The position numbers were made by a program, and so were the translations under genes. Below, one piece after another: positions 24,018 to 33,829 of a DNA stretch of 64,000 nucleotides. The notes beneath the pieces were generated by a model, which worked only from the letters and a program-made list of their open reading frames with translations, was not told the DNA's origin and made no database searches. The DNA comes from Cyanobacterium sp. T60_A2020_053 (lineage in GTDB: Bacteria; Cyanobacteriota; Cyanobacteriia; Cyanobacteriales; Cyanobacteriaceae), in the NCBI GenBank assembly GCA_015272165.1, contig JACYMF010000008.1, forward strand, positions 1 through 64,000, written 5' to 3'. How positions within the stretch are numbered: position 1 is the first letter of the stretch; each line of letters starts with the position of its first letter.

Positions 24018-25703
24018 TACCAAGGATTACCAATCATGGTGAAGGGCGCCCAATAAAAAGGATGGGAAAAATCTTCTGGTTGCTGAGATCGACTAGGCAA
24101 ATCCTGCAAAGAAATTTCCATGTCAGGGGTAATAATAGTATCCCCCGTAGGTGATTTTTGGGTGCGTTTTTGCACTAAACTTAGTTGCGAAGGATTGCTA
24201 ATATTTGCCCACAGATTCGTCGTTGCCTCTACCACTTCGCCACGGCTTACTGGTACAGTTGTACGGATCGGTCTTTCTTTCTTCTACATCAGGAGTTGCC
24301 GGGTCTGATAAAATTTCGATATTATCAATAGTTTCATCAAATAAAAAATTACCTTCTGTTAGGATAGTATCCCCTGTTTCGATGCCATTTTCCGTACCAT
24401 TACCCAATGTGATAGTGGTGTTATCGTCCGTATCTTCAAAAATTGTAAGAGTCGTGGTTGATTCTCCTACCTGAAAAGGAATACGGAATGCTTCCTGATT
24501 AAGAAAATCATCATCTTTTAAAATATCATTAATTTTGTAAGTAATCGTCAAACTGTCTCCACTCAGCGCCCCTCTCGTGGAGATTGTGAAATTAGGATTA
24601 GCCGATAAATTTAGTAAATCATTATTTGGTAAACTACCAAACGCCCGAATAATAGACTGAGAAAAGAGGTTAACTTGCCCCCCTACCCCTTCGCTACTAC
24701 GATCATCAATACTATCTAATTGAATGCCTACAATTAAATCATCCGCATCATTTTGATCTTTAATTTCTCCATTCTCATAACGCCGAAAATTGTTCTCATC
24801 TCTAGCAATTATCGTAACATTTCCAGCTTCATCAATACTACTAGCATTAATATTTTTGGTAATCACATATTCAGAAGAATTGATATTGATAAAACCAGAG
24901 GGGAGGGCGCTGGAGGAATTGATGTCACCCGTGACAATACCGCCCCCCTGAGACAATAAGTTAATATTGCCACCATTACTGATTAAATCTCCTGTGATGA
25001 TATTACCATCTAAACTGCCTCTGGTTTCCCCTACCCCTTCCACACTAATAACATTAATACCATCGCTATTTACTGTTACCTCAATACCGGTTAAACTTTG
25101 ATCACTTCCTGTTAATAAAGCAGGTAAATCTTGAGGGGTGAACCCCAAAGAATTTCCTCTCTCATCAGTAGGTATATTTAACTCTATGCTTAACAAACTA
25201 CCTTCAGGGGTTATTTTTATCCTGCCAAGACGATTAAGGGCAACTATGTTTAGTTTACTTCCAGAAGTAGTAATGGTTTGACTGTTAATGACGTTACCAC
25301 CAATCAAATTAAAATCTCCAGCAACTCCAGTGTTATGGGACGTATTAAGAATACTACCCGGATTGTTGGTATTAAAAATAAAACTGTTAGGATTACCCGT
25401 TAAATTACTAAAGTTATTATCACCAATAGCATTAAAAATGCCGTTATCAAATCCTATTCCTGTAGCAGTGGTAGCACTAAAATTAGCAGGGACATTAATA
25501 ATAGCATTTTGTCCAAAAATAATTCCGGATGGATTGATTAAAAATAAATTAGAGTTACCCCCATTCACTTGAATTAAACCGTTGATAAAAGATGGATTAT
25601 TGCCAGTAATTCTGCCTAAAATATTTTGAATATTGGGACTACTTAACAAATTAGCAATTTCTCCTTGATTTAAGTTAAAGTCTGAGAAACTACTGAAAAA
25701 TAG
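24017..25703 (-). pseudogene. Wrecked haemagglutinin-type/CHAT exoprotein gene
   Basis: From about 25697 down the frame encodes the filamentous-haemagglutinin N-domain core of cyanobacterial two-partner exoproteins: FSDFNLNQGEIANLL, NPSFINGLIQVNGGNSNLFL and NPSGIIFGQNA, followed by beta-helix repeats and an LTITYKINDIL-type segment. The frame breaks near 24240-24290. In the shifted frame the last 72 residues end HPFYWAPFTMIGNPW, the closing motif of CHAT protease domains. The signal peptide, start codon and CHAT catalytic core are missing. An open frame extends upstream to 25904, but that part overlaps the next gene and has no family resemblance. It is probably a fused haemagglutinin-CHAT gene after large deletions. 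Confidence 0.78.
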
Positions 25704-25778
25704 GTAAAATATATTTCCAAAGTAATTTTTTGTAAAAATCGGGTTAAAATAGCCTAGGACGCATTTAACTTGCTCTGT

Positions 25779-27116
25779 ATGATCAAACCTGCTCGTATTA
25801 GTAAAATTATTCCTGATTCCATTGCCGAAGAAATTGGTTTTGAAGTAGGTGATAGCATCGTCAAAATTAATGGTACGGCTCCCCGTGATCTCATTGATTA
25901 TCAATTTTTATGTAGTGATGAATATTTAGAAATAGAAGTAATAGATAAGTATAATAAAAATCATGTAATTGACATAGAAAAAGATTATGACGAAGGTCTT
26001 GGTTTAGAATTTGAAAATGCCCTTTTTGATAATTTAATTCAGTGTAATAATAATTGTCCATTTTGTTTTATTGATCAACAACCAGAAGGCAAAAGAGATA
26101 CACTTTACCTCAAAGATGATGATTATCGTCTTAGTTTTCTCTATGGTAGTTATTTAACCTTAACTAATTTAACACCTAAAGAATGGACGAGAATTGAACA
26201 AATGCGCCTTTCACCTTTATATGTTTCTATCCATGCCACTGAAGCAGAAATTCGAGAAAGATTGCTCAAGAATAAGCGCGCTGGGGAAATAAAAAAACAA
26301 TTAGCATGGTTTCAAGAAAAAAGATTACAAATTCATGCTCAAGTGGTAGTATGTCCTAATATTAATGATGAAGAACATTTAACCACTACCCTAAGAGATT
26401 TATTTAGTTTTCATCAAGGAGAAATTCCAGCAGTAATTAGTACGGCAGTAGTACCCGTAGGATTAACTAAATTTCGCCCGTCAGGAGATGAATTAATCCC
26501 TGTCACCAGAGAAAAAGCGCAGGAAGTTATTGCCCAAGTACAACAGTTACAACTAGAATTTAGAGAACAATCAGGCTCTACTTTTGCATGGTTAGCGGAT
26601 GAGTGGTTTTTGATAGCAGGAGAAGATTTGCCGCCAGAATCCCATTATGAAGATTATCCGCAAATTGGCAATGGCGTTGGTTCTATTCGCCAGTTTATCA
26701 AAGAGTTTGAGGAGGGCGCCCTTCACCATTTACCAGCAAAAATCTCTGTGCCGAAAAACTATACATGGATAGTTGGCAATGCCGTAGAAAAAGCCTTTAT
26801 GCCCCTAGTGGATTGTTTAAATAAAGTCGAAAATTTAACCGTTAATTTAGTAGCCTTAAATAGTGATTATTGGGGGCAAGAAATCACCGTAACGGGATTA
26901 TTAACTGGACAAGATTTATTGACAAAATTACCAAACTATGTATTAGCGGAGGAAATACTCTTACCTTCAGTAATGTTAAAACATGACGAGCCAAAATTTT
27001 TAGATGATGTTACAGTAGAAGAGTTAGCAGACAAATTAAATCGTTCCATTATTCCTGTTAATGGAATACTTGATTTAATGAATATTGTCGGCAACAATTC
27101 CCGAAAATCTCAATAA
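25779..27116 (+). CDS. Cyanobacterial PDZ/radical-SAM-like Fe-S protein (DUF512, TIGR03279 type)
   Basis: 445 residues from the ATG at 25779 (MIKPARISKI); an upstream TTG adds only three residues. An N-terminal PDZ-like domain (about 1-65, IPDSIAEEIGFEVGDSIVKING) is followed by a CxxxCxxC cluster (C89, C93, C96 in CNNNCPFCFID) as in radical SAM enzymes. A DUF512 region ends with a ligand-like NLVALNSDYWGQEITVTGLLTG segment. The cluster suggests a [4Fe-4S] enzyme of unknown substrate, nearly universal in cyanobacteria. It is followed 23 bases later by pxcA, so the two are likely co-transcribed. The palindromic GC-rich motif at 26711 encodes EEGALHH. Confidence 0.9.
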   Translation: MIKPARISKIIPDSIAEEIGFEVGDSIVKINGTAPRDLIDYQFLCSDEYLEIEVIDKYNKNHVIDIEKDYDEGLGLEFENALFDNLIQCNNNCPFCFIDQQPEGKRDTLYLKDDDYRLSFLYGSYLTLTNLTPKEWTRIEQMRLSPLYVSIHATEAEIRERLLKNKRAGEIKKQLAWFQEKRLQIHAQVVVCPNINDEEHLTTTLRDLFSFHQGEIPAVISTAVVPVGLTKFRPSGDELIPVTREKAQEVIAQVQQLQLEFREQSGSTFAWLADEWFLIAGEDLPPESHYEDYPQIGNGVGSIRQFIKEFEEGALHHLPAKISVPKNYTWIVGNAVEKAFMPLVDCLNKVENLTVNLVALNSDYWGQEITVTGLLTGQDLLTKLPNYVLAEEILLPSVMLKHDEPKFLDDVTVEELADKLNRSIIPVNGILDLMNIVGNNSRKSQ

Positions 27117-28402: not shown

Positions 28403-28702
28403 TAAGGCTTTGCTAAAAACTGGAATTGTTGAGGTAGGCAAGAGGCTAAAGTCAAAATGCTTTAAAATCAATGGTATTGGGTTATATATTTTCAGTGCAT
28501 CAATTGTTAATTTGTATCAATTATTTTTGATTCGGATAAACATATTTCGGACTTCTAGCTTGATTCTTGAAAAATAAGAGAGTAAAAAAGTTGGTTTTTT
28601 GGCTTTTTTTCATTTTCAGGGGAAAATTTGCATAAATCGCTACTTTATTCCTGATAAGTAAATAGAAATCAAAATTCAGTTAACTCAAAACTCACATATT
28701 CT
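28403..28702. other. 300-base gap with repeat fragments
   Basis: Contains degraded pieces of the hairpin repeat ('ttcggacttctagcttgattctt' near 28546) and of MITE family 2 ('tgtatcaattatttttgattcgg' at 28514). A 60-codon frame from 28395 is composed of these repeats and is not believed. A promoter for the sigma-like gene should lie here, but I cannot identify it. Confidence 0.6.
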
Positions 28703-30145
28703 ATGAGAATGCAGAAACGCACTGATATTAAGATGCAGTTTTCCTCTTTTTTGCTTCTTGAATCAGCTTTATCAGTACAAACCTATTGGTATATTGCCAG
28801 AGAATTAGAGCAAAATATACAACGATGTTTACAAAAATCTCATCACTTTGGTGATTCAGAGATAATCGCAAAGCAATTATTACAAAATTTGCGACAGAAA
28901 AAAGATAGTTTCTCTCAACAGCATCTTACCGCCTATTTGCAGGAATCAAGTTTTTTTGCAACTCAGACAGTTTATCGCCGTTTATACAAAAAATGGGATT
29001 TATTTGAGTGGCAAGATTACTTTCAATGGGCAAACTTATTTGTTGCTCAACCTTTGAATTTATTACAAAGATATGACCATAAATTCAACTCAAAAATAAC
29101 TACTTATGCCAAAAGTAAAATTGAAGGGCAGTTGATTGATCAAGCCTATCAATATATGGGGTGGAGTCGTGCCTCAGATTGGGGTTTACTAAGAAAAATG
29201 AACCCTACTAATCAAACTAAAGCCCTAGAAATTATGGGCGGTTTAAGAGGAAATTATTTAGCCCAGCATTTACTCATTACAGAATGTTTTAATATAGTTT
29301 ATAAATCTTCTGTTTCTTCTAAAAGTAAAATACTTCCCCCTCCCAGCAAAATGCAACTTGAAGCCATCACAGTTGCCTATAATAATTTTGCTCAAAATAA
29401 TCCCAGTTTATATACATCAATTACTGTACAACAATGTCAAAAACTGCTTAATTTTTGTGTGGAGTGCGCTCGTAATTTTGCTAATCCTAATATCATCAAA
29501 GACCCAAATTATTTAGATAGTTTTGCTAGTGATAATAATGAAGATACCCAAGAAAGTACCACAGAATATCACCAGGTCAATAATATTTTAGCTAATAAAT
29601 TTAGAGGATTAGAAAAAAGTCATAAAATTATTTTTATATTATGGCAAGGTTTACATATTAACCAAAAAGATATAGCTAAAATAATGAGCACACATTATGG
29701 AAAAAATATCAGTCAACAGTTTCACATTGCCAGGGAAGTTAATCAAGCTAGAAAAATACTTTTAGAGCATTTAATTGAAGAAATTATTTTACAACAGCAA
29801 GAAAGTAAAGAGATTAATTTAGCTGATTTGAGTAAGCTCAAATATCCCCTTAATGATTGGATTAGAGAATATGCTGATAATTATTTTAGAAGTAAACTTG
29901 ATCAAATATTTAATCAACTTAGTATTGATAATAGAAAAATTATTAAACAAGCCTCTTTAAAGTTGATTAGTCAACAAACTCAAGAAAAACAACCTACACA
30001 ACTATTCAACATTATTAGTTTACAACTACAAAATAGTCTAGCCCATGATTTTAGTCTTGACTGGACAAAATTAACAGATGTTGACGAGTATTTTTATCCT
30101 CTTATTGAAGAATGGTTAATTTATCATTCTAATTTTCTTGATTAA
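28703..30145 (+). CDS. Sigma-70-like protein of the DUF1822/CHAT cassette
   Basis: 480 residues from 28703; other ATGs at 28709 and 28733 are possible and no start has a strong ribosome site. A region-2-like segment runs from about 105 to 175 (LNLLQRYDHKFNSKITTYAKSKIEGQLIDQAY, then WSRASDWGLLRKM), as in cyanobacterial sigma-like proteins. A helix-turn-helix region-4-like segment lies at about 300-365 (GLEKSHKIIFILWQGLHINQKDIAKIM). It is much longer than a group 3 or 4 sigma factor (about 200-260 residues). It begins a same-strand run with a DUF1822 gene 32 bases later and a CHAT gene. It could act as a transcription factor for the cassette; this is inferred. Confidence 0.78.
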   Translation: MRMQKRTDIKMQFSSFLLLESALSVQTYWYIARELEQNIQRCLQKSHHFGDSEIIAKQLLQNLRQKKDSFSQQHLTAYLQESSFFATQTVYRRLYKKWDLFEWQDYFQWANLFVAQPLNLLQRYDHKFNSKITTYAKSKIEGQLIDQAYQYMGWSRASDWGLLRKMNPTNQTKALEIMGGLRGNYLAQHLLITECFNIVYKSSVSSKSKILPPPSKMQLEAITVAYNNFAQNNPSLYTSITVQQCQKLLNFCVECARNFANPNIIKDPNYLDSFASDNNEDTQESTTEYHQVNNILANKFRGLEKSHKIIFILWQGLHINQKDIAKIMSTHYGKNISQQFHIAREVNQARKILLEHLIEEIILQQQESKEINLADLSKLKYPLNDWIREYADNYFRSKLDQIFNQLSIDNRKIIKQASLKLISQQTQEKQPTQLFNIISLQLQNSLAHDFSLDWTKLTDVDEYFYPLIEEWLIYHSNFLD

Positions 30146-30177
30146 AATTTATTTACTGAAACTTTTAACAATTAATT

Positions 30178-31590
30178 ATGATTACGACTTTCGCCACGGA
30201 TAATAAAATTATGAAATTAGATTTTTTTACATCTTTTAATGATGAGCATTTATGGCTAGAATTTAGTGATGAAGACTGGGAAGAAGCCAAAATGTTAGTA
30301 GAAAATAATCATGAACAAAGTATTATTAATCTACTTATTAGTAAGTGTTTTTTGCAATGGTTAAATACTACTTATGAAGAAGCAGAAGAAGCAACATTAG
30401 ATCAATCTGTTGAAAAGTATTTACCAATATGGAGTTTATTTACAGGTGTTGCAATTCAAATTAATAATTTGCGTTTAATACTTATTCCTCAAGATTATCA
30501 AAATTTAGAATGGTTTAATATTCCTCAAGAATGGGTTGATATTCCTCAATTTGCAGGTAATTATTATCTTCCAGTAGAGGTTAATTTAGATGATCAATGG
30601 TTAAAAATTGCTGGTTTTATTAGTCACCAAGATATTAAAAATTATGGTAGTTTTAATACTTATTTACGAGGTTATTTTCTCAATAAAAATAAAATTGAAG
30701 CAGAACTTAATTTATTATTTATATTAGAAGAATATAATGGTTCTCAATCTTTATCTTGTCCTACTTTATTCCCTTTATTACCAGAAAAAGAGCAAAAAAT
30801 TATTACTCAGTTAAAATTATTACCTAATTATTTATTACGGTATCAACTACCTTTTGAGGAGTGGGGCGCTTTTATTGCTCAAAGTAAAAATCGTCAATTA
30901 CTTTTTAAAACTCATCAACCATTAAAGTTGGGAGATTGGTTAAATAATAATTTTGAACAGGCAACGATGAAAGGGTGGTACAATTTAGTTAATTTTGCTG
31001 ATAATTTTAGTATTATTTTCAATCCTCCTTCTTTAGCAATGAATGGTTTGAGTATGCGTCAAGGAGATGTCAATATTGAGCAATTTTATCAGTTAAAAGA
31101 AGAAAGACAAATGAAAATAGTTGCTGAAAGATTACGATCTATTTCTGTACAAAGTTCTAAGAAAAATCAGGTCTTAGCTTTATTAAATCATTTTATGGAT
31201 CAATGTCATGATGAGGATACTCGTTGGACTATTGCCGAAAGTATTTGGCAATTAGAGCCTTATCATAGGGGCGCTGGTTTATGGTTTGGCAAAAAGTTTG
31301 ATTTAGGAATTAATTTAAGTGGCAACAAGTTTACTTTAGTTATTGGTATTTTAGGAAAATCAGCTTCAGAAAATAGTATCTTTATTAAGTTATATGGGGA
31401 GCCTAATCAAATATTACCCACTAATTTAAAATTGGTTATTCTTAATCAAGAAGGAGAGATTTTTCAAGAATTAAGCGCCCGTCACCAAGACTTAATATTA
31501 CAGTATAAATTTTGGGGACAAAAAGGGGAATATTTTTGGTTGACAATTACTCAAGGAGATAATCAATTAACGGAAAGTTTTATTATTTAA
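30178..31590 (+). CDS. DUF1822 family protein
   Basis: 470 residues; another ATG at 30211 (MKLDFFTSF) is possible. Recognised by order and context: an N-terminal LDFFTSFNDEHLWLEFSDEDW, internal VDIPQFAGNYYLPVEVNLDDQWLKIAGFISHQD, and a C-terminal half with LWFGKKFDLGINLSGNKFTLVIGI and a beta-sheet end. DUF1822 is a cyanobacterial family without known function, commonly found beside sigma-like and CHAT genes. No signal peptide or membrane segment is visible, so it is likely cytoplasmic. It starts 32 bases after the sigma-like gene. Confidence 0.82.
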   Translation: MITTFATDNKIMKLDFFTSFNDEHLWLEFSDEDWEEAKMLVENNHEQSIINLLISKCFLQWLNTTYEEAEEATLDQSVEKYLPIWSLFTGVAIQINNLRLILIPQDYQNLEWFNIPQEWVDIPQFAGNYYLPVEVNLDDQWLKIAGFISHQDIKNYGSFNTYLRGYFLNKNKIEAELNLLFILEEYNGSQSLSCPTLFPLLPEKEQKIITQLKLLPNYLLRYQLPFEEWGAFIAQSKNRQLLFKTHQPLKLGDWLNNNFEQATMKGWYNLVNFADNFSIIFNPPSLAMNGLSMRQGDVNIEQFYQLKEERQMKIVAERLRSISVQSSKKNQVLALLNHFMDQCHDEDTRWTIAESIWQLEPYHRGAGLWFGKKFDLGINLSGNKFTLVIGILGKSASENSIFIKLYGEPNQILPTNLKLVILNQEGEIFQELSARHQDLILQYKFWGQKGEYFWLTITQGDNQLTESFII

Positions 31591-31601
31591 AAAATCATTT
31601 T

Positions 31602-31627
31602 TAACAAGGGGTTGAAACCCCTTGTTA
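31602..31627. terminator. Perfect 12-bp hairpin between the DUF1822 and CHAT genes
   Basis: TAACAAGGGGTT and AACCCCTTGTTA form a perfect stem with a minimal GA loop. It is not followed by a T run, so it is not a classic terminator. Similar GGGGTTT/AAACCCC hairpins occur at about 14234 and 52852, so it may belong to a repeat family or be an mRNA 3'-end stabiliser. Confidence 0.5.
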
Positions 31628-31778
31628 GTTAGAATTATCTAAAAAAATATTTTCTATAAGGGATTTAAAATTTTTGTGAAGAATAAATAAATATCCAAAG
31701 TCGTCATGAGAAACTTTTTTTGTGTTAGATCAAACTGAAGTGAAGTAAAATTATCAATGACCTAATGTGGTGACATAG

Positions 31779-33143
31779 ATGACAAGTAAATTGATAGTGC
31801 TGAAAATTGGCGAGGGTAGCCTAGAAACGGGCTTCCCTTTAACTATTCGTCTTAACCAAGAAGAAAATCAGCAACTATTGATAGAAACGGAGGGAAAGTT
31901 ACCGCCAACCCCTCGCCTTTATGACAGTTATTTACAATGGCAATCTAGTTATCGTCATCTAGCTTCATCTTTGCGCTTAGGTGCAAATGATTTTCAAGTT
32001 ACCAATGTCGCCGTTAGTCAATGTCAAGAAAATATCGCCGATTTGGAGTTACAACTTAATAACTGGTTACAATGTCCTCAACTGCAATCCCTGTGGTTAG
32101 ATGTTTTTTCTCATCTCAATCGAGAAGATACAATTCGAGTGGTTATTCAAACCAATGAGGGGCGCTTGTGGCAAATTCCTTGGCACTTGTGGAGTATGTG
32201 GCAACGTTATCCGCAAATTGAAATTGCTTTAAGTAAAATCAATTCTCAAAAACCGATAGTATCAGAAGAAATTAAAAAGGGGAAACGAGTCAGAATTTTG
32301 GCAATCTTAGGAGATCGTCGTAATATAGATGTAGAAAGAGATCGGCGTGTTTTAGAAAGTTTACCCAATGCTGAGGTGGTATTTTTAGATCAACCTAATT
32401 TATCAGAATTAACTCCATTATGGGAACAATCTTGGCATATTCTCTTTTTTGCTGGTCACAGTAACACTAATCAAGATGGTAATTCGGGATGTTTACAAAT
32501 TAATCCCTATGAAAGTATCGACATTCAACGGTTAAAGAATACTCTAAACAAGGCAATTCATAATGGTTTACAACTGGCAATTTTCAATTCTTGTGACGGT
32601 TTGGGTTTGGGATTTAATTTAGCAGATTTAAACTTACCCCAGACTATTGTCATGCGCGAAGCGATACCAGATCAAGTGGCGCAAGAATTTTTAAAGTTTT
32701 TCCTCCAAGCCTATGCGCAAGGAGATAGTTTATATCAAGGAGTGAAGGAAGCTAAAGCTAAGATACAAGATTTGTACCATTTAGAACAACAAGCGCCCGG
32801 CTCTAGTTTTTTGCCCGTTATCTGTCAAAATTTAGCGGTAAAACCACCTTTATGGGCTGATTTAACTTCTCAGCCTTCGTTTTCTGTTGCCAACTTGCGG
32901 TTACTTGCCAAATTTAAATGGTGGTGGTGGAGTGCGCCCGTCATCCTAGTTTTACTAATCTGGTTTTTGATTAAACCGCCCATGATGCCAGAAGGGGAAG
33001 GCAAAGCCATTCGTCAACCCATCGAAGGTAGCTGTCAATGCCCCTATGATTTAGATAAAGCCGGTAAATTATGCGGAGGTAGATCGGCTTATAGTCGTGC
33101 CAGTAACGATTCCCCGCCTGTTTGTTATCTGGAAGATAGATAA
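31779..33143 (+). CDS. Membrane-anchored CHAT-domain (caspase-like) protein
   Basis: 454 residues. The CHAT peptidase domain spans about 100-350 with an intact dyad: H227 in LFFAGHSNTNQDG and C272 in LAIFNSCDGLGLG. The N-terminal 100 residues are a separate, mostly beta region. A Trp-rich stretch and one membrane helix (about 385-402) lead to an exported tail with four cysteines (CQCPYDLDKAGKLCGGRSAYS ending in VCY), a motif seen at the ends of exported cyanobacterial proteins. The protease domain should thus face the cytoplasm with the tail outside, or the reverse. CHAT proteases act in regulated proteolysis and in some defence systems; the substrate is unknown. It lies 188 bases after DUF1822, with a hairpin between. 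Confidence 0.88.
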   Translation: MTSKLIVLKIGEGSLETGFPLTIRLNQEENQQLLIETEGKLPPTPRLYDSYLQWQSSYRHLASSLRLGANDFQVTNVAVSQCQENIADLELQLNNWLQCPQLQSLWLDVFSHLNREDTIRVVIQTNEGRLWQIPWHLWSMWQRYPQIEIALSKINSQKPIVSEEIKKGKRVRILAILGDRRNIDVERDRRVLESLPNAEVVFLDQPNLSELTPLWEQSWHILFFAGHSNTNQDGNSGCLQINPYESIDIQRLKNTLNKAIHNGLQLAIFNSCDGLGLGFNLADLNLPQTIVMREAIPDQVAQEFLKFFLQAYAQGDSLYQGVKEAKAKIQDLYHLEQQAPGSSFLPVICQNLAVKPPLWADLTSQPSFSVANLRLLAKFKWWWWSAPVILVLLIWFLIKPPMMPEGEGKAIRQPIEGSCQCPYDLDKAGKLCGGRSAYSRASNDSPPVCYLEDR

Positions 33144-33204: not shown

Positions 33205-33460
33205 GGGTCTGCTGAATAAATCAAAACCCTTGTCTAATAAAAGTTTAAAGTCTATTCTACATAACAAAAAGTGTCATAAATTGACTTTTTTCTCTAAAAA
33301 TACTCTATTTTTTCCATCCGAATCAAAAATAATTGATACAAATGAGCAATTTATGAAAAGTAACTATTTGGCTTAACTCTTTAATTTATAAGCATTTCAC
33401 CTGAAACCTGACACCCGAAACCTGACACCTCCCCTCACCACTCCACTTTTTCAGCAACCC
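33205..33460. mobile_element. MITE-like element, family 2, full-length copy
   Basis: 256 bases from GGGTCTGCTGAATAAATC to 'ccactttttcagcaaccc', the same length as the copy at 19135-19390. A heptad array (33401-33431, unit near CTGACAC) lies inside the right part. No reading frame. It ends 19 bases from the urtB remnant. The preceding 33146-33196 is a purine-rich irregular array. Confidence 0.85.
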
Positions 33461-33478
33461 CCAATTATTCATTATTCA

Positions 33479-33829
33479 TTACAATTCCGCCGTGCGCCCT
33501 TTCGGTGGGAAAATACCAGCAGGTTTAATCTGTAAAAAACTAATAATAATGATAAAAACTAATACTTTTGCCATGGTAGTAGTGGCGAAAAAATTAATCA
33601 CACTCAATACAAATTCTGGAGGATTTTGCGCCGTTAATAACACACCGATACTGTTAGATTCAAATAAATAACTAACGATACCAATGGATAGCGCCGCAAT
33701 AATTGTACCTAACAAATTACCAACGCCACCAACTACTACCACCATAAAAGCATCCACAATATAATTTTGCCCTGTATTTGGTCCGACTGAACCAATACTT
33801 ATGCCATATAACAAGGTTTCTGTTAACAT
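33479..33829 (-). pseudogene. urtB: C-terminal remnant of urea ABC transporter permease UrtB
   Basis: 116 residues of uninterrupted frame containing VGPNTGQNYIVDAFMVVVVG then GVGNLLGTIIAAL, then NFFATTTMAKVLVFIIIISFLQ and IKPAGIFPPKGRTAEL. This is the C-terminal third of UrtB; intact proteins have roughly 380-400 residues. The upstream part is missing and replaced by repeat DNA. The remaining piece includes about two membrane helices and cannot form a permease alone. Lying on the same strand as the urtA remnant 11 kb away, it shows that the urt operon was dispersed. Confidence 0.87.

Follow-up and report, generated by a model that had tools for sequence, protein, structure and literature searches.

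A sigma-70-family/DUF1822 gene pair and a short CHAT protein with a predicted membrane helix and a four-cysteine tail in Cyanobacterium sp. T60_A2020_053

The locus and its surroundings

The window analyzed here is a stretch of 64,000 nt from Cyanobacterium sp. T60_A2020_053 (contig JACYMF010000008.1, positions 1 to 64,000). It contains three plus-strand ORFs, located where a preliminary description of this DNA had placed them. The first (28703-30145) encodes a long sigma-70-family protein of 480 aa, assigned by the ORF, TIGR02937, a family profile, and an AlphaFold2 model. The second (30178-31590) encodes a DUF1822 protein of 470 aa (PF08852, E = 1.6e-57), and the third (31779-33143) a short CHAT (caspase-like) protein of 454 aa (PF12770, E = 1.1e-10, and an alignment of 11 orthologs). 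The gaps are 32 nt between the sigma and DUF1822 genes and 188 nt between the DUF1822 and CHAT genes; the coordinates thus confirm the earlier report of three genes on one strand, with DUF1822 starting 32 bases after the sigma-like gene. The genome carries one sigma protein of the long-sigma family, one DUF1822 protein, and one such CHAT protein.

Upstream of the module lies pcxA (CemA family), preceded by a radical-SAM/DUF512 gene. Downstream, we found a C-terminal permease fragment, a likely outer-membrane protein, an amidohydrolase, and a SufBD protein. The permease fragment (33479-33829, minus strand) is a 116-aa C-terminal piece of a branched-chain/urea-type ABC permease and appears to be a gene remnant; the adjacent 280 bases, read in every frame, hold no continuation of it. 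A protein with a TPS (filamentous haemagglutinin-type) secretion domain is encoded at 24198-25904 on the minus strand. Its N-terminal part seems to be lost, as the match starts at profile position 38 and the upstream frames contain stops. A scan for promoters and terminators yielded no more sites than were found in shuffled sequences.

The gap between the DUF1822 and CHAT genes contains a stable hairpin (region 31583-31660, -18.6 kcal/mol, z = -3.45) with a perfect palindrome at 31602-31628 of the plus strand, AACAAGGGGTT-N-AAACCCCTTGTT. This palindrome is dispersed in the genome, with 77 forward and 80 reverse matches at three or fewer mismatches, palindromic copies being counted on both strands. 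In addition, the module is flanked by an inverted repeat (28486-28537 and 33316-33367, 85%), the 3' copy of which belongs to a longer repeated block. We rejected this repeat as a special cassette boundary, as its core is dispersed through the genome in 17 exact copies and 57 near ones; by a rough estimate, ~0.4 pairs this close are expected by chance if 17 exact copies are placed randomly in 3.36 Mb. Downstream of the CHAT gene, at about 33205-33462, is a MITE-like dispersed repeat whose ends resemble GGGTCTGCTGAA and TTCAGCAACCCC; its core, with 57 near copies in the genome, also lies 5' of the sigma gene, in the inverse orientation. An empty-site comparison with other members of the genus is impossible, since pcxA has other surroundings there.

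The three proteins

In NCBIfam, the sigma-like protein matches TIGR02937 (sigma70-ECF) below the cut-off (25.8 vs. 42.9 bits, E = 7e-6); searched alone, it matched none of the Pfam sigma models. Relatives were gathered by whole-genome and contig searches, and the resulting 71-member alignment served as a profile. In this family, TIGR02937 was found in 69 of the 71 members, and the Pfam domains Sigma70_r4 and r2 in 41 and 26 members, respectively. When compared with PDB, the family profile matched sigma-28/SigF, the best match (9.7e-10) being at sigma4 and the sigma2 matches being weaker. The leading Foldseek and VIA-align matches of the AlphaFold2 model (pLDDT 88, pTM 0.54) are sigma subunits. 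As Foldseek on the whole model gave low TM scores, we compared individual domains by VIA-align. The sigma2 domain, at about residues 52-152 (28856-29158, plus strand), was delimited by VIA-align, hhalign, and conservation and aligned with 4x8k over 92 residues (Z 7.8, rmsd 2.3). The sigma4 domain, at about residues 289-358 (29567-29776, plus strand), was delimited by VIA-align and the PDB profile matches and aligned with 4nqw over 63 residues (Z 7.8, rmsd 1.4). In the model, additional helical parts separate sigma2 from sigma4, and others lie at the C-terminus.

According to hhalign, D105 and Q108 match the DLIQ motif present in the other sigma factors of this genome. The motif lies in region 2.2, a polymerase-binding part. 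Position 105 is occupied by D or E in all 71 family members, and Q108 is retained in 65. Judged by sigma2 and sigma4 in both profile and model, the product of the first gene is a divergent sigma-70-family protein, and from this likeness it is predicted to bind RNA polymerase and to recognize promoters. A complete lack of a polymerase-binding surface, which the preliminary description named as evidence against its proposal, is not what we see, as both sigma2 and sigma4 are present. It had also stressed the length of 480 residues as twice that of the usual small sigma factor, which is true, while lengths of about 390-550 aa are normal within the family.

In the model of the DUF1822 protein (pLDDT 87), the N-terminal part is alpha/beta, the middle is helical, and the C-terminus forms a beta-sandwich. 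Comparison with known structures gave weak matches (best Z 7.5), and the DUF1822 profile matched no PDB chain at E ≤ 1. A relation of DUF1822 to Csx30 or to known anti-sigma factors found no support, either by sequence or among the structures listed. Still, the constant occurrence of DUF1822 with the sigma gene suggests that it may act as an anti-sigma factor, inhibiting the sigma protein. For the N-terminal part (residues 30-186), VIA-align lists folds like those of the archaeal Holliday junction resolvase Hjc and the restriction endonucleases Eco15I/NhoI, with Z of 6-7.3, a range that is common by the tool's own description. We do not claim a nuclease here, as the nearly invariant residues include no conserved E-x-K, and treat this as a weak lead. 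In the literature library searched, we found no experiments on proteins of the DUF1822 class; DUF1822 is mentioned there in two papers, in one of them as lines in a mutation table.

In the CHAT protein, a constant N-terminal region precedes the CHAT domain, which is followed by a single predicted membrane helix and a Cys4 tail of ~40 residues. The residues of the catalytic type, H227 (codon at 32457-32459, plus strand) and C272 (32592-32594, plus strand), are intact as previously claimed and invariant in 11 orthologs. Protease activity or autoproteolysis is predicted from this dyad. The single strongly hydrophobic stretch, at about residues 385-403 (32931-32987, plus strand), is the top hydropathy window in 11 of 11 orthologs, which bears out the earlier assignment of one membrane helix. 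Residues 3-364 share ~40-47% identity with the best-matching longer CHAT proteins of other genomes, encoded in CHASE2-type loci. The related CHAT proteins that were scanned have C-termini with CHASE2, TPR, WD40, nSTAND1-WD40, and periplasmic-binding-like (PBP) domains; those with CHASE2, TPR, WD40, and PBP tails that share region 3-364 occur beside DUF1822.

The Cys4 tail, residues 410-454 (33006-33140, plus strand), is conserved among the orthologs, contains exactly four cysteines after the helix (C419, C421, C432, and C449), and matched no Pfam family. The module, ~40 residues with the pattern CxCPYDxDxxGxxCGxxSAYSRPGGxxPxCY, recurs in other proteins of cyanobacteria and proteobacteria, in places on plasmids (rhizobia, Xanthomonas, Pantoea, and others). 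These include short ORFs that stand alone and have hydrophobic N-termini, a DNA/RNA non-specific endonuclease resembling a lipoprotein (locus L284, with further copies of the module at L287-L290), and SH3 proteins of rhizobia. The tail probably faces outward, as the helix is C-terminal to a presumably cytoplasmic protease domain; elsewhere, the same module follows a hydrophobic N-terminus or belongs to a lipoprotein-like nuclease, which also suggests an extracytoplasmic location. Hence, of the "exported Cys4 tail" in the preliminary description, the four cysteines are certain, and the side of export is suggested by the context of the module, which we consider a candidate unnamed extracytoplasmic domain.

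Gene order and distribution

To describe gene order, we used 80 loci found with the sigma alignment, counting DUF1822 if it was on the same strand and at most 400 nt downstream. DUF1822 is the next gene in 71 of the 80 loci, with a median gap of 9 nt, so the sigma-DUF1822 pair is a conserved unit. A CHAT gene comes third in 36 loci, while about half of the pairs have none nearby. A DUF1822-based search revealed two layouts, the long-sigma type of the window and a type with a short upstream ORF and CHASE2. In the latter, an upstream ORF of ~220 aa (in the one example scored, sigma region 2 was matched weakly, E = 0.018) is followed by a shorter DUF1822 gene, a CHAT gene with a CHASE2 or other tail, and often an ORF of 250-310 aa, which was DUF928 in the two examples scored (L122 and L150). 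In two scored cases (L139 and L157), loci of the CHAT-CHASE2 type were followed by a TPR-CHAT protein on the opposite strand. The frequent DUF928-like ORF and the opposite-strand TPR-CHAT protein mean that sigma-DUF1822-CHAT may be part of a larger operon class.

The distribution was surveyed in 196 genomes of the order, with thresholds of 750 bits for the CHAT variant (the next match scored 427) and 200 bits for the window-type sigma. The full CHAT variant was found in ten genomes (G000, G006, G007, G008, G010-G014, and G020), and the window-type sigma in the same ten and in G031 only. Thus, all ten CHAT-variant genomes carry the window-type sigma, and the genes co-distribute; independent distribution, which the preliminary description named as evidence against its module, is not seen. 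The naive Fisher p of 6e-16 for this association should not be taken literally, since all carriers except G020 and G031 belong to one family and independent events are few. All three genes are missing from G002-G004, near-complete genomes of three other members of the genus. In G009, from a smaller genome set, the CHAT variant is intact, the sigma match is shorter, and DUF1822 contains stops. All three genes are adjacent only in the window genome and in G014; the CHAT gene is ~12 kb away in G020 and at another locus in the remaining genomes. The word "cassette" therefore overstates the linkage.

The preliminary description considered the module undescribed; the class as such had already been published from sequence analysis. 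Kaur et al. 2021 (eLife, PMC8195603), in the passages on EACC2-caspase proteins, name these proteins, describe C-termini that vary and include CHASE2 with TM helices, and report in silico that ECF sigma and DUF1822 genes neighbor theirs. They proposed that autopeptidase activation leads to a transcriptional response. Given the likeness in region 3-364 and that description, the window module is, by sequence, a member, with a new C-terminal variant, of the EACC2-caspase/ECF sigma/DUF1822 class of predicted signaling systems: it has the constant N-terminal region with CHAT, a variable C-terminus, and neighboring sigma and DUF1822 genes.

A possible sigma switch and its relation to known systems

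Our best reading, which we hold tentatively and place somewhat short of probable, is that of a sigma-DUF1822 switch controlled in trans by the protease, by analogy with Csx29/Csx30/CASP-sigma. DUF1822 would bind the long sigma factor and keep it inactive. The CHAT protease would be anchored at the inner face of the membrane and its Cys4 tail would project outward and read a signal, the candidates being redox state, a metal, or envelope stress. The activated protease would cleave DUF1822 (or itself), the sigma factor would engage RNA polymerase, and target genes would be turned on; the protease could do so from an unlinked gene. Here we infer the tail orientation, the signal, the inhibitory role of DUF1822, the cleavage, and the target genes. 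This reading is favored by the sigma-DUF1822 pairing, the sigma domains, the invariant H/C dyad, the sharing of region 3-364, the co-occurrence of CHAT and sigma in ten of ten genomes, and the joint absence in three genus mates. It also has a precedent in Csx29-Csx30-CASP-sigma (PMC10028731), and a scheme of the same general kind was proposed by Kaur et al. 2021 (PMC8195603). Against it stand the many pairs with no close CHAT gene (about half), the unlinked position of the CHAT variant in most of its genomes, the intact CHAT variant of G009, a genome whose DUF1822 gene carries stops, the few independent lineages behind the co-occurrence, and DUF1822 itself, which shows no relation to known anti-sigma factors or Csx30 in sequence or among the structures listed.

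Some of the same observations could mean that there are two modules, sigma-DUF1822 being a complete regulatory unit and CHAT an independent HetF-like membrane protease with other substrates, a chance neighbor in two genomes. The unlinked CHAT genes, the 188-nt gap with its hairpin, the many pairs with no CHAT nearby, and the broken DUF1822 of G009 all fit this explanation. We nevertheless consider it somewhat unlikely, as the CHAT variant and the window-type sigma occur together in ten of ten genomes, one of them outside the family, and a related CHAT gene is third after sigma-DUF1822 in 36 of 80 loci. The tight coupling of sigma and DUF1822 even away from CHAT could also reflect a positive role, with DUF1822 an adaptor or scaffold that takes sigma to promoters or to the membrane and CHAT cleavage ending the response or processing the adaptor. 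The modeled helical middle and Ig-like sandwich look adaptor-like; however, the tested CHAT-sigma precedent runs through an inhibitor (PMC10028731), and such a role seems improbable to us. Finally, the caspase-like protease could be the effector of a conflict or cell-death system, with sigma merely adjusting expression. EACC2-caspase proteins are indeed listed under predicted conflict systems in the passages of Kaur et al. 2021 (PMC8195603) that treat them. On the other hand, none of the three proteins matched a PADLOC-DB family (2023 library) at E ≤ 1, the classified neighbors are housekeeping genes or remnants, and the layout looks regulatory. This explanation is quite improbable, and the suggestion of a defence module in the preliminary description is unsupported given the PADLOC result and these neighbors.

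A more specific form of the trans-acting switch, a transmembrane, CRISPR-independent protease-sigma relay via DUF1822, with an extracytoplasmic Cys4 tail sensing redox state or a metal and operating even from an unlinked gene, is rather unlikely when all its parts are taken together. If true, it would give a sensor role to a widespread module that has no Pfam name. In cyanobacteria, CHAT proteins often occur next to sigma factors. The mechanism, if true, would be an instance of CRISPR-independent caspase-like control of bacterial transcription. The window genome makes it testable, having a single sigma of the family, a single DUF1822, and a single such CHAT protein.

Among known systems, the CHAT protein HetF, from cyanobacteria that form heterocysts, belongs to the divisome and has ~830 aa (PMC8406250). 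Like the window protein, it combines CHAT with one TM helix, and it is a putative protease whose function needs its active site (PMC8406250); the window protein is far below the HetF equivalog cut-off NF045509 (30.8 vs. 1200 bits). In the RseA/RpoE and RsiW-type envelope stress pathways, membrane-linked proteolysis likewise releases a sigma factor (PMC10028731). In those pathways the anti-sigma factor itself sits in the membrane, whereas in the window the membrane protein would be the protease.

The closest tested mechanism that we found is that of type III-E systems, in which the CHAT protease Csx29 (TPR-CHAT) cleaves Csx30, an inhibitor of CASP-sigma (PMC10028731). In both Craspase and the window module, a CHAT protease occurs together with a sigma factor and one further protein, and in Craspase proteolysis frees the sigma factor (PMC10028731). 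By contrast, the window CHAT protein has a predicted membrane anchor instead of RNA activation, DUF1822 has no detectable likeness to Csx30 in sequence or among the folds listed, and the classified neighbors include no CRISPR effector or Cas7-11/gRAMP gene.

With the EACC2 class, as presented in the relevant passages of Kaur et al. 2021 (PMC8195603), the window module shares the N-terminal region with CHAT, a variable tail, often with TM helices, and the sigma and DUF1822 neighbors. It differs from that description in its C-terminus, one TM helix with a Cys4 tail not named there, and in its DUF1822 protein, which according to the model is not a plain TPR protein. In addition, its sigma factor is a long, divergent form, and its CHAT gene is usually unlinked from the sigma-DUF1822 pair.
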